The position numbers were made by a program, and so were the translations under genes. Shown piece by piece: positions 50,416 through 53,509 of a stretch of 64,000 nt of DNA. The stretch lies in assembly GCA_017483605.1 (NCBI GenBank), contig JAFUWG010000016.1, positions 22,151 to 86,150 on the forward strand, written 5' to 3'. Positions within the stretch are counted from its first letter, which is position 1. Every line of letters begins with the position of its first letter. The notes below the pieces were generated by a model that searched no databases, had not been told where the DNA came from, and saw nothing but the letters and a program-made list of their open reading frames with translations. This stretch comes from Bacteroidaceae bacterium. GTDB lineage: Bacteria; Bacteroidota; Bacteroidia; Bacteroidales; Bacteroidaceae.

Positions 50416-50539
50416 TTGCTTTTTTATTTGTTTAGGGTTGGATCGGGAGGCGAAGCACCGCTATGAGAAAACCGCCGAATGGTCATCCAGAGTCCTCTCT
50501 GTGCTCACTTGTTCGAGCCTTTCCGACATAAATCGGCTG

Positions 50540-50570
50540 CAAAGATACAACTTTTTCCCCATTCGGCAAA
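50540..50570 (-). promoter_or_regulatory. rplU promoter and leader
   Basis: On the minus strand TTTG (50570-50567), 19 bp, TATCTTTG (50547-50540): a full consensus. Transcription would begin near 50533, giving a leader of about 118 nt before the L21 ATG. I see no convincing stem-loop or known L21 leader motif in that stretch. Confidence 0.87.
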
Positions 50571-50741
50571 ATATTTTCTCCACATTTTTACCTCCCCATC
50601 CATTTTTCTCTTCAACAAAGAAGATTTCTTGTAGCCGTATGACAATATTCTCATCTACACGGGCTACGCTGTGTGGTCTTGCCCCATGAAAGTGGTTCAT
50701 CTATATTCGCCTCATTGGTCAACATACATGAGCCTTATCAT

Positions 50742-51992
50742 TCAACAACGAGAGGCGTTCAAATCTTGGACAAGACAATAATACTTTAATGCAAGAAGAG
50801 CCTTTCCACGTTCGATTTCGCACAACTGTCGTTGTTCATCCTCACTATAATTCAATGTAACCATGCACTTGGGGCATAATCTCACTGCCCAGCACTGGCT
50901 ACACAGACGATTCAACCTCTCCACATAACGAAAAGTTAAGTTCCGCATCCGTTGTTGATCAAAGCCGCTCCACAAATTCCCCACGCTCTGCTCCATACAA
51001 ACCTTTTCACAAGCATATAGTGTTCCATTCGTGTCAATATAACAACGATGCATATCATTTAGGCAACTATAGATGGTGTGTTCTCCTTGGCACAATTCAA
51101 AATCCCGATTCTTGATGGTATCTACCAATGTCTGCAAACTTCTGGTCATGAGCGTTTTCTCCCCTCGTACATATTGAGCAAACGCCTTTTTGTAATATGC
51201 TGCCAAATCGGACAGACGGGGAAGGAACAATTCTCCATTTGAGAAATTGGGAGACACCAAAGAGATGATGATTGGGAGTTTGTCGCTCAACGGTGTTGTC
51301 CGCCATCGGTCGCTTAGCATTTCTGCATCTTCTATTTTGCGAAGAGTTGCCAATATCGCAACCCTCTCTTGATACTCCTTGGGGTATTTATCTTTGAAAG
51401 ACAGTAGGTTGGCAACAATCTGGTCATAACTACCTTTTCCTTGGATGGTCTTGCGGCAAGCATCGTGCATCTCCTTATCGCCATCGACAGACACCATCAC
51501 CTGAACATTCGGAACGGAGCAAATCCAATCGACAATCGCAGGTGTCAATGCCAAGCCGTTGGTAGAGATGGAGAACTGCACCAACCCTCCCAATCGCCTT
51601 CTCAATTCCGACACCAGAAACTCGACCTTGTCAAAACAAATCAGCGCCTCACCTCCATACAGATTCACATGCACTTTCTCCGCTTCCTTGTTGCAATGCT
51701 CGCCAATAAACTCGATTGTTTTCTTGAGAGTCTCTTCCGACATGCTGAGCGGACTATGACTCCTCATGCCCTCATATTGCCCCGAATAGCAGCAATAGGA
51801 GCACCGAAGTGTACACTGCTGAGTCAATTCGACAACAAACTTCTCGATTCTTGAATGGATGAACGAAGCACTTGCCTCGAAAGAGAGGTCAAACTCCTTG
51901 GCAGCATCAAACACATTGGACAACTCTATCCGATTGTCCAACGTATAGTAGATGGCATTCCCCCTTAAGGTTTTGAACCTTATGGCATGCAT
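50742..51992 (-). CDS. Radical SAM/SPASM peptide-modifying enzyme (probable)
   Basis: A 416-residue enzyme. The radical SAM cluster motif is Cys60-x3-Cys64-x2-Cys67 (CTLRCSYC), followed by the glycine-rich SAM segment NLYGGEAL near residue 109 and ISTNGLALT near residue 142. The C-terminal SPASM part has CYIDTNGTLYACEKVC and CSQCWAVRLCPKC (C-x2-C-x5-C-x2-C) plus later cysteines, enough for two auxiliary 4Fe-4S clusters. The first 55 residues are an extension before the barrel, where such enzymes often bind a leader peptide. The gene starts 3 bp after an Asp-rich small gene, its likely substrate. The family is clear; the reaction is not known. Confidence 0.88.
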   Translation of the reverse strand: MHAIRFKTLRGNAIYYTLDNRIELSNVFDAAKEFDLSFEASASFIHSRIEKFVVELTQQCTLRCSYCCYSGQYEGMRSHSPLSMSEETLKKTIEFIGEHCNKEAEKVHVNLYGGEALICFDKVEFLVSELRRRLGGLVQFSISTNGLALTPAIVDWICSVPNVQVMVSVDGDKEMHDACRKTIQGKGSYDQIVANLLSFKDKYPKEYQERVAILATLRKIEDAEMLSDRWRTTPLSDKLPIIISLVSPNFSNGELFLPRLSDLAAYYKKAFAQYVRGEKTLMTRSLQTLVDTIKNRDFELCQGEHTIYSCLNDMHRCYIDTNGTLYACEKVCMEQSVGNLWSGFDQQRMRNLTFRYVERLNRLCSQCWAVRLCPKCMVTLNYSEDEQRQLCEIERGKALLALKYYCLVQDLNASRC

Positions 51993-51995
51993 AAA

Positions 51996-52256
51996 TCAGA
52001 GTCCTGTGACAACATGGTAGGTCCCATTCTCTGCCAGATGCCGCTTCTTGCATTCTGGATACTCCCAACAACTTTTGCGACCAAACGATGGATTGGAATG
52101 GTCACTTGATGTGTCATTGTAGATGTCATCATCATCATCCATGCTATCATCCACATCATCAAAGTCGTCATCCATGCTGTCGTCCATGTCATCGTCAAAA
52201 TCCGAGTCGTCGTGGTGACCGAACAAGGCTTTGCCAAATCGAATTAAGTCTTTCAT
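51996..52256 (-). CDS. Small aspartate-rich protein, candidate substrate of the radical SAM enzyme
   Basis: An 86-residue protein. Residues 1-15 are a short basic/hydrophobic start (MKDLIRFGKALFGHH). Residues 16-52 contain 22 Asp in runs of two to five broken by Ser-Met, Phe or Val (DDSMDD occurs twice). The tail has SFGRKSCWEYPECKKRHL with Cys63 and Cys69 and ends HVVTGL. The CWExxxC start recalls two-CW motifs. It has no signal peptide and no known family that I recognise. Spacing of 4 and 3 bp to its neighbours shows strict co-translation. A RiPP-like precursor is the leading idea; a metal-binding accessory protein is the alternative. Confidence 0.72.
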   Translation of the reverse strand: MKDLIRFGKALFGHHDDSDFDDDMDDSMDDDFDDVDDSMDDDDDIYNDTSSDHSNPSFGRKSCWEYPECKKRHLAENGTYHVVTGL

Positions 52257-52260
52257 AACT

Positions 52261-52551
52261 CTACTCCTTTACCTTTGAAATCCATGTATGCTTACAATTA
52301 GGATTCATACAATTAAATCGATACCACACATAGCCATCATCTGTTGTTTCACGGTTTTTCTGAAGAAATTTAGCAAGTTTATATCCTAAACCTCCGCCAA
52401 CAGGAAGACCAATAGGACCACCGAGTAGAGAACCTATACTAGCCCCAGCAACAGCGAAGGCTGCTGCTGCATAGTTGTCTTCTTTTTCCGTATAAAGGTG
52501 TCCTTCATTCCCTTTCCGCCCACATTCGGGGCAATCTTGTTTTACTGCCAT
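52261..52551 (-). CDS. Zinc-ribbon protein with glycine-zipper core
   Basis: A 96-residue protein. CPEC (Cys7, Cys10) at the start and CMNPNC (Cys81, Cys86) near the end would form one zinc ribbon; between them is an Ala/Gly-rich hydrophobic stretch (about 28-60: AAAAFAVAGASIGSLLGG and GLPVGGGLGYKLAKF) like a membrane-inserting glycine zipper. The tail HTWISKVKE is polar. It is the first gene of the operon with the Asp-rich peptide and the radical SAM enzyme. The function is unknown; it may anchor or escort the modified peptide. Confidence 0.7.
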   Translation of the reverse strand: MAVKQDCPECGRKGNEGHLYTEKEDNYAAAAFAVAGASIGSLLGGPIGLPVGGGLGYKLAKFLQKNRETTDDGYVWYRFNCMNPNCKHTWISKVKE

Positions 52552-52628
52552 AATTTTATTTGCTTTAAGTTAGTACTAAATTGTTTCTTCTCGATGGAGA
52601 ATCCTGCACTAACCTATGGGCATAGAAA

Positions 52629-52796
52629 AAGCGCAGGCATTCACCACACGCAGTTCAGGTCTAGGCCAACCTTCAAGTCACTATGGGAAGCCTGCGCTTG
52701 GGGCGCAAGCCTCATGTGACTTGAATTTTGCTCTATCATTTCGAGGGCCTAGTTCGAACTGCGATTGAGCAAATAAAATGTCATGTTCCGAAGAAC
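52629..52796 (-). promoter_or_regulatory. Structured 5' leader with alternative hairpins, attenuator-like
   Basis: Read on the minus strand, the transcript begins with GTTC-TTCG-GAAC (52796-52785). A long nested hairpin follows: CGCAGTTC/GAACTGCG (52763-52756 with 52656-52649), CTAGGCC/GGCCTAG (52752-52746 with 52667-52661), TTCAAGTCAC/GTGACTTGAA (52725-52716 with 52681-52672), and an apical GCTTGCGC/GCGCAGGC. A competing stem AAGCGCAGGC/GCCTGCGCTT (52699-52690 with 52638-52629) uses the same apical strand and is followed by TTTTTC, as in an intrinsic terminator. The two folds exclude each other, the plan of a riboswitch or attenuator. The rest of the leader to 52552 is AT-rich. Confidence 0.78.
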
Positions 52797-52802
52797 ACGT
52801 TG

Positions 52803-52833
52803 CAAAGATACAAACGAATTTGATAGATTCAAA
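52803..52833 (-). promoter_or_regulatory. Promoter of the radical SAM peptide operon
   Basis: On the minus strand TTTG (52833-52830), 19 bp, TATCTTTG (52810-52803), a full consensus. The expected start near 52797 coincides with the first base of the UUCG hairpin of the structured leader. Confidence 0.87.
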
Positions 52834-52864
52834 ACTTTTCGGGGAAAAATTTGCAAAGCCATAT

Positions 52865-52909
52865 AAAAAGTTGTTGCGGTTCGTGAATTCCCACGAACCG
52901 CAACAACTT
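52865..52909 (-). terminator. Bidirectional terminator after the nucleotidyltransferase gene
   Basis: An 18-bp perfect stem, AAGTTGTTGCGGTTCGTG with its complement, has a 6-nt loop (52886-52891). On the minus strand it is followed by TTTTTATATGG and so ends the transcript of the nucleotidyltransferase gene at 53034. The 124-bp stretch 52910-53033 is AT-rich with no other feature. Confidence 0.9.
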
Positions 52910-53033
52910 TCAAAAAGCAAACACTTTCTTTTCCTTATGTCTTGTTAAACTTTTATATCATATTCTCATTTTTTGACTTTATATTTATTCGGTGTTATCA
53001 CAAAAGGCAAAGACTGCAACAGTTTCCAAGTGT

Positions 53034-53351
53034 CTACACGGCAATTCCTGTGCGTATGACATCATCGTATAGGATGGAGTCTTCATTTTCTTCCATTAAG
53101 ACTGGCTCTATCAACACATTGAGTCTGATGGCATCAAGACTGATGTTGGTAGATTGAAGCAACCAGTCTCCATCAACATGCGGAACAATAACTGCTACAT
53201 CGATATCACTTTCTGGGCGTGCACACCCCTTGGAGTAAGACCCGTATAAAAACACTTTGGGCTCACTTTTGAAACGAGGTGTAATAACTTTCTTGTACTC
53301 CCTTACGAGATTGAGAGCCTGCTGTTGACTAAGAGTTTTTCGTGTATCCAT
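53034..53351 (-). CDS. MNT-type nucleotidyltransferase antitoxin
   Basis: A 105-residue minimal nucleotidyltransferase. The active site is GSYSKGCARPESDIDVAV (from Gly37; metal ligands Asp49 and Asp51). Proteins of this kind pair with HEPN ribonuclease toxins and silence them, often by AMPylation of the toxin. Its first 49 bp overlap the end of a HEPN-like fragment, as in such pairs. It seems intact while the partner is not. Confidence 0.85.
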   Translation of the reverse strand: MDTRKTLSQQQALNLVREYKKVITPRFKSEPKVFLYGSYSKGCARPESDIDVAVIVPHVDGDWLLQSTNISLDAIRLNVLIEPVLMEENEDSILYDDVIRTGIAV

Positions 53352-53509
53352 TGTTTCATCTGTTGAGTGGTTTCAAGAATGTACTTGCATGATTGTTCGG
53401 TTAGTGTACTTGCAATCTTTTTCTTATAACTGGGGTAACGTGCCTCAATATACATGGGAATCATCATGGCAATAAAGGTTTGTTGATCCTCATTGAGTTC
53501 TGTCATCAA
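53303..53509 (-). pseudogene. Truncated HEPN-type toxin gene
   Basis: The frame reads ELNEDQQTFIAMMIPMYIEA then RYPSYKKKIASTLTEQSCKY and ILETTQQMKQWIHEKL, the C-terminal half of a HEPN protein including the YIEARYP motif. HEPN toxins of MNT pairs are about 130 residues; here only 68 remain. In-frame upstream codons read LLDGCGLM and then hit a TAA near 53528. The missing N-terminal half is replaced by noncoding DNA that leads into the duplicated element at 53637. Confidence 0.65.

Follow-up and report, generated by a model that had tools for sequence, protein, structure and literature searches.

Is the small, strongly acidic protein encoded directly in front of a radical SAM/SPASM enzyme gene the substrate of that enzyme, and if it is, which part of it would be modified? 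The question is posed by an operon of a Bacteroidaceae bacterium. It lies in the window, by which we mean the whole 64-kb stretch of DNA that was analysed, and consists of three minus-strand genes (52551 to 50742) for a zinc-ribbon protein (ZR), an acidic protein (ASP) and the enzyme, in this order (Table 1). An earlier note on this DNA had described such a three-gene operon and had suggested that an Asp/Ser-Met repeat in the acidic protein forms the core of a RiPP of no described class. The open reading frames are indeed where that note placed them, with 4 bp between ZR and ASP and 3 bp between ASP and the enzyme gene. The three genes are presumably transcribed together.

Table 1. Features of the operon, the element upstream of it and related loci (window positions unless a locus is named)
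Feature	Position	Strand	Basis or remark
Radical SAM/SPASM enzyme, 416 aa	50742..51992	-	ORF, Pfam, NCBIfam, alignments
ASP, 86-aa acidic protein	51996..52256	-	ORF; homologue in G283
ASP C-terminal tail, residues 61-86, with Cys63, Cys69, Glu65, Glu68 and Glu76	51999..52076	-	candidate modification site
SSDHSNPSFGR motif, ASP residues 50-60 (SSDHDNLTFGK in G283)	52077..52109	-	comparison with G283
Asp tract, ASP residues 16-52 (22 Asp)	52101..52211	-	sequence
ZR, 96-aa zinc-ribbon protein	52261..52551	-	ORF; relative in G283
Structured RNA element, about 250 nt	about 52552..52800 (to 52810)	-	folding, copies, paired changes
TATCTTTG, like the Bacteroidetes -7 promoter box	52803..52810	-	sequence
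Element copies	L165 1469-1691; L164 1474-1713	- (both)	before two genes for probable secreted proteins
Cassette regions	L035 8432-11570; L036 1802-4532; L037 9032-11782; L038 11106-13959		

The Operon and Its Genomic Setting

The operon has rplU/rpmA-like genes (recognised by eye) and genes of the MNT/HEPN type as neighbours. Among the neighbouring ORFs, inspection by eye found no protease or exporter, in agreement with the earlier note. We compared the rplU regions of 10 of 12 other genomes of the same genus; in the other two, rplU marks the start of the contig. DNA similarity to these regions breaks off close to rplU, either at the gene or a little upstream of it (positions 50423-50580). Over the 6-9 kb compared in each, tblastn detects neither the trio nor the MNT/HEPN pair nor the two genes that follow in any of the ten. 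The trio has a GC content of 0.448 and the MNT/HEPN pair one of 0.412, both below the 0.503 of the window; two nearby genes reach 0.535 and 0.588. Because the similarity stops near rplU, the genes are missing from the sister regions and their GC content is low, we read the trio region as a putative recent gain at a variable spot.

An Enzyme of the Peptide-Maturase Kind

The enzyme matches the Pfam family Radical_SAM with an E value of 2e-13. The radical SAM site (C60, C64 and C67) and the SPASM cysteines that had been described for it are present: together with cysteines 310, 328, 364, 367, 373, 376, 391 and 406 they are invariant in an alignment of seven enzymes, the window's included. In a wider alignment of 13 rows, C60, C64, C67, C310, C328 and C373 stay invariant and C364, C367, C376 and C391 nearly so; C406 is not kept. 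The top five NCBIfam matches are all peptide maturases, and all score far below the curated cut-offs (bits/cut-off: CcpM 203.7/500, RumMC 141.5/720, PapB 133.7/340, lachnocin 111.5/550, TIGR04148 110.7/300). The nearest solved chain is 5wgg (E 9.6e-18 with the single sequence, 7.6e-47 with a seven-row profile), which is CteB according to the portion of PMC10352776 used here. Sequence comparison supports the view that the enzyme is a complete radical SAM/SPASM protein of the peptide-maturase kind.

This part of the earlier assignment stands, at the level of matches below cut-off. The N-terminal extension, which had been taken as typical of maturases, is short: the first cluster cysteine is residue 60 here and residue 119 in PapB (PMC10470005, whose numbering we used in extract), which leaves 59 fewer residues before it. 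With an N-terminus this short, a full leader-binding domain may not fit.

The best family match, CcpM (TIGR04068; E 5e-60, residues 43-413), is the maturase of Cys-rich peptides of the CLI_3235 type. Its partner is rich in cysteine, whereas ASP has just two cysteines in 86 residues, both in the tail. As outlined in an excerpt of PMC10731318, the CcpM cluster of P. polymyxa includes ABC transporter, TIGR04066 and TIGR04069 genes; none of these was seen by eye among the neighbours of the operon.

PapB, the freyrasin maturase of the ranthipeptides, combines radical SAM and SPASM parts as the enzyme here does and uses acidic acceptors. All ten PapB cluster cysteines (three radical SAM, seven auxiliary) have counterparts in our enzyme. 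By the same extract of PMC10470005, the steps of +18 (310-328) and of +3 and +6 (364-367-373) are equal in both proteins, whereas two steps differ: 373-376 is +3 against +4 in PapB, and 373-391 is +18 against +23. Arg372 of PapB, two residues after C370, is described as essential, its loss abolishing activity. Lys330, two residues after C328, would correspond to it by counting, a register read from the numbers only. Lysine or arginine occupies this position in seven of seven aligned enzymes, so Lys330 does not single out acidic substrates.

ZR and ASP Occur as a Pair Without the Enzyme

ASP contains 23 aspartates (codons GAT 11, GAC 12), 22 of them within residues 16-52, and DDSMDD twice. Its only cysteines are Cys63 and Cys69, and there are glutamates at 65, 68 and 76. 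The peptide is thus as it had been described. Of all ORFs in the window that encode 30-219 aa, no other packs 14 or more acidic residues into a stretch of 30, and searches of Pfam, NCBIfam, PHROGs and PADLOC assign ASP to no family. That it is a chance ORF can be rejected, given a homologue behind a ZR homologue in another genome, G283.

This genome came up in a search of 399 genomes of the family with ZR, a protein with the motifs CPEC and CMNPNC and, between the two cysteine pairs, a Gly/Ala-rich stretch that may form a membrane hairpin. ZR was found in two of the 399, its own genome, which holds just itself, and G283 (E 1.8e-11, 38% identity). In G283 an Asp-rich ORF of 145 aa follows 4 bp after the ZR homologue, in the same order and with the same gap as in the window. 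It shares with ASP an acidic stretch and the motif SSDHxNxxFG(K/R), with a BLASTP E value of 0.001 in a single comparison. Of 5000 shuffles, 16 reached the score of the tail alone; for the full-length score it was 1 of 3000. This likeness would be moderate by itself; with a homologous neighbour in the same order and at the same gap we consider the proposed homology convincing. The G283 protein is acidic as well but lacks the DDSMDD repeat and has a longer and different tail.

Unlike the operon of the window, the pair in G283 has no such enzyme beside it. Within 19 kb around it there is no ORF of at least 100 aa with a CxxxCxxC motif, a filter that recovers the enzyme of the window, and the next ORFs (155 and 828 aa) appear to be secreted. 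The sole match to the enzyme in this genome, which is 84% complete, is distant (E 9.6e-7) and lies on another contig.

Further relatives are scarce. Among 37 genomes of its genus the G283 ZR was found in G283 itself only, and a two-row ZR profile matched 1 of 393 genomes of the order, its own. A two-row ASP profile matched 8 of 339 family genomes (a sample that overlaps with the 399) at E 0.1. Of these, G000 and G283 belong to the profile and match by construction; the remaining six matches, which have E values of 0.026-0.076 and in two cases internal stops, were discounted as chance. By tblastn, the ASP of the window matched nothing in phage or plasmid records and that of G283 nothing in plasmid records, with a low-complexity filter on that handicaps ASP in both cases. 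The ZR of the window gave no tblastn match in plasmid records and that of G283 none in phage or plasmid records. The plasmid records gave no match by DNA either, and no ZR or ASP match was confirmed in viral contigs. Conservation of the trio, which the earlier note had proposed as a check, was not borne out: the complete set occurs in no other genome searched, and the one relative has ZR and ASP alone.

The Nearest Relatives of the Enzyme Lie Behind Cys-Rich Peptides

Close relatives of the enzyme are rare too. The enzyme was found in 1 of 45 genomes of the genus (E 1e-30; its own), in 4 of 399 of the family (1e-35; its own included) and in 1 of 355 of the phylum (1e-50; its own). The own genome also holds a second copy, L002, which the last cut-off drops. 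A scan of genome contigs yielded 23 loci with 25-34% identity over parts of the enzyme, and 110 plasmid and 28 phage records matched, all below 60% identity.

The nearest enzymes (L002, L004, L005 and L006; 27-29% identity) share a cassette: a metallopeptidase-like gene (M48), a short peptide, the enzyme and an acetyltransferase-like gene (GNAT). M48 and GNAT are confirmed by Pfam in L002 and assigned by likeness in the other three; in L006, enzyme and acetyltransferase are fused in one frame. The peptides are RiPP-like, with a common leader and three to five cysteines near the end. Their genes stand directly before the enzyme gene, at spacings of 0 and 6 bp or with overlaps of 19 and 41 bp, a feature that the four cassettes have in common with the window, where ASP ends 3 bp before the enzyme gene. 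Two things differ. M48 and GNAT genes adjoin in the cassettes and are absent beside the trio, and the cassettes have a Cys-rich peptide and no Asp-rich gene where the window has ASP. The N-terminus of ASP, compared by eye, has nothing in common with the leaders of these peptides. More M48-like and zinc-ribbon genes were noticed by eye near the cassettes, and a MotA/MotB-like pair in L037.

How widely do related enzymes have acidic neighbours? We surveyed 27 loci (20 picked from 104, plus L002, L004, L005, L006, L041, L042 and L043; some are near-duplicates, such as L086/L087, and some, such as L088 and L089, have little upstream DNA) and found an Asp-rich ORF near the enzyme in none, using a filter that recovered the acidic genes of both the window and G283. 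Within 14-19 kb around the four cassette enzymes (L035-L038) there is no Asp-rich ORF under 220 aa; one ORF of 337 aa in L035 reaches the acidic threshold, more than 3 kb from the enzyme. The earlier note had named enzyme homologues without an Asp-rich gene as evidence against its proposal, and the four closest loci, small as the number is, are of this kind. Because the pair of G283 lacks the enzyme and the nearest kin of the enzyme sit behind Cys-rich peptides, ZR and ASP look like a core module, to which the enzyme may be an added part.

What the Enzyme May Modify

Our preferred account, held tentatively and with a chance we would put somewhat short of even, is that a radical SAM/SPASM maturase has joined a ZR-ASP module and modifies the tail of ASP. 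Made next to ASP, the enzyme would place a cross-link, or two, in the tail of 26 residues, for example from Cys63 to Glu65 or Glu68, or from Cys69 to Glu76. The substrate would be ASP, and the chemistry a thioether. ASP begins with a short hydrophobic segment, continues with a flexible acidic spacer and the SSDHxNxxFG(K/R) motif, and ends in the variable, cysteine-bearing tail. The Asp tract would remain unmodified, as spacer or recognition element. ZR, a small zinc-ribbon protein, would be in contact with the membrane through its possible hairpin, and the product would stay in the cell.

In the four sister loci a small peptide gene lies directly upstream of the enzyme gene, and ASP thus occupies the position of a substrate. 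To this extent it may well be the partner of the enzyme, as had been proposed. Since G283 keeps ZR and ASP without the enzyme, the run of aspartates is probably not the modified part, and the proposed Asp/Ser-Met core finds little footing.

The chemistry of PapB indicates where a modification could be, not that one exists. According to the passages of PMC9413430 drawn on here, PapB forms thioethers from Cys to Asp or Glu in Cys-X3-Asp/Glu motifs, tolerates Cys-Xn-Asp with n from 0 to 6, with Glu shown at the X3 spacing, and gives no product from the transposed motif DSANCA, in which Asp precedes Cys. In ASP the tract precedes both cysteines, so PapB-like chemistry would need Glu65, Glu68 or Glu76. 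The available spacings (Cys63-x1-Glu65, Cys63-x4-Glu68 and Cys69-x6-Glu76, i.e., n of 1, 4 and 6) would suit it if Glu is tolerated there, which is an extrapolation. ASP has no CX3D/E motif; Pro67 and His73 stand four residues after Cys63 and Cys69.

Several findings speak against modification of the tail. The pair of G283 is the sole other one known; the tail of its ASP is longer and unlike the one here, and no such enzyme stands beside it. In addition, the N-terminus of ASP is unlike the sister leaders, the enzyme departs from PapB in the length of its N-terminus and in two cysteine steps, Lys330 is not specific, and neither an exporter nor a protease gene was seen near the operon. With one other pair and incomplete genomes, the ranking of explanations may change as more sequences become available. 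A more elaborate version appears unlikely to us. In it, ASP would be a resident acidic adaptor, paired with ZR as a membrane-hairpin protein and cross-linked in its tail by the enzyme; the product would work inside an intracellular machine rather than be secreted as a peptide, and a new class of structured leader RNA would control the whole unit.

A realistic alternative, if one we rate slightly lower than modification of the tail, is that the enzyme acts on ZR or on a peptide encoded elsewhere, or is simply a recently acquired neighbour, with ZR and ASP alone forming a metal-binding or scaffold pair. That the pair stands alone in G283 fits this well, as do the absence of any match to the enzyme at E 1e-30 in the other 44 genomes of its genus, the lack of any trio gene beside rplU in the ten sister regions, the low GC content of the trio and the second such enzyme in the same genome (L002), which has a Cys-rich peptide of its own. 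The 3-bp spacing behind ASP and the order of peptide then enzyme in the sister lineage argue the other way.

Far less probable is an origin of the trio as an altered member of the M48/Cys-rich peptide/radical SAM/GNAT cassette that is present in the same genome and in three relatives. In a tree of 17 rows the enzyme of the window groups with the four cassette enzymes, with a support of 91/87 that is not among the strong branches and on a long branch, of which others were flagged elsewhere in the tree. The peptide of L002, too, is directly preceded by a small zinc-ribbon/glycine protein. However, hhalign gives that protein a probability of only 37% against ZR, the trio has no M48 or GNAT gene, and ASP has nothing evident in common with the Cys-rich peptides.

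We find it hardest to believe that the Asp/Ser-Met repeat itself is the core, despite the tight gene coupling, the maturase-like enzyme and the Asp acceptors of PapB, considering that the homologue in G283 has neither repeat nor enzyme, that none of the 27 surveyed loci (a small number) has an Asp-rich ORF and that both cysteines follow the tract, an order on which PapB failed, which weakens this explanation as one motif in another enzyme can, other chemistry on the tract being conceivable. We also set aside an anti-phage role: all that PADLOC reports is that the radical SAM enzyme resembles viperin (2.2e-10), and neither ASP nor ZR has a hit.

If the enzyme does modify ASP, then the chemistry of SPASM enzymes would reach a small, highly acidic protein, one that occurs without the enzyme as well, and the operon would be a natural test of the choice between many aspartates and few glutamates near cysteine. 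If ASP is not modified, the locus cautions against taking the product of an Asp-rich gene for the substrate of the radical SAM enzyme encoded next to it. A survey of RiPPs in Bacteroidales reports many areas with radical SAM genes only, and its main text, in the form consulted, has no word beginning with "aspart" or "M48" (PMC10352776). We found no paper that joins radical SAM, precursor peptide and aspartate-rich or Asp-rich, in a literature search that mostly covered papers outside subscription.

A Structured RNA Element Upstream of the Operon

The sequence in front of ZR holds a second subject, a structured RNA element that, by its position, is presumably the leader of the operon. Near its start, TATCTTTG resembles the Bacteroidetes -7 promoter box, whose consensus is TAnnTTTG. 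For the operon strand, from 52810 to 52552, the folding energy is -97.9 kcal/mol with a z of -7.5, a level reached in 0 of 200 shuffles. The opposite strand folds unusually well too (52600-52780: -66.3, z -4.8, 0 of 200 shuffles), as inverted repeats do. Hence, we assign the element to its strand by its position and its copies, which lie in the same orientation before their genes.

The element has matches in two of seven genomes searched, namely near-full copies in G000 C9 (76%) and G011 C32 (71%), and the same search gave short matches of 25-51 bases at four more places. The near-full copies are followed, after 31 and 35 bases, by ORFs that seem by eye to begin with a signal peptide. In the alignment of the three sequences, 92.2% of cells pair. 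Changes on both sides affect 22 of the 77 pairs, compared with a mean of 8.6 in shuffled alignments (0 of 500 as high) and 1 to 4 in slid controls; the structure was derived from the same three-row alignment, which favours this count. The bases just before the ZR start would pair with TTTTATTTGCTC near the 5' end to form a closing helix. None of the pairs of this helix is changed on both sides, and in one row some of them are broken, which leaves a role in hiding the start of ZR a guess.

Rfam has no match at the element or in its copies; three sub-threshold hits all fall at 52860-52959, beside it. An exact 19-base pattern found nothing in viral contigs. Gauged against Rfam rather than against the surveys of structured RNAs (PMC2864571, PMC8040213), the element is possibly more novel than the operon itself. 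As a leader RNA, it can be tested separately from the question of enzyme and substrate.

Two smaller features lie further upstream. Between the operon and the MNT gene lies an inverted repeat (52867-52910) whose 19-bp arms match perfectly and are separated by 6 nt, perhaps a terminator. The MNT-type nucleotidyltransferase (NTP_transf_2, E 3e-8; 53034-53351) overlaps a short HEPN-like ORF (53303-53509; 20.8 bits against a cut-off of 22). Both are on the minus strand and low in GC, and the two might form a type VII toxin-antitoxin system in which the HEPN component is shortened.
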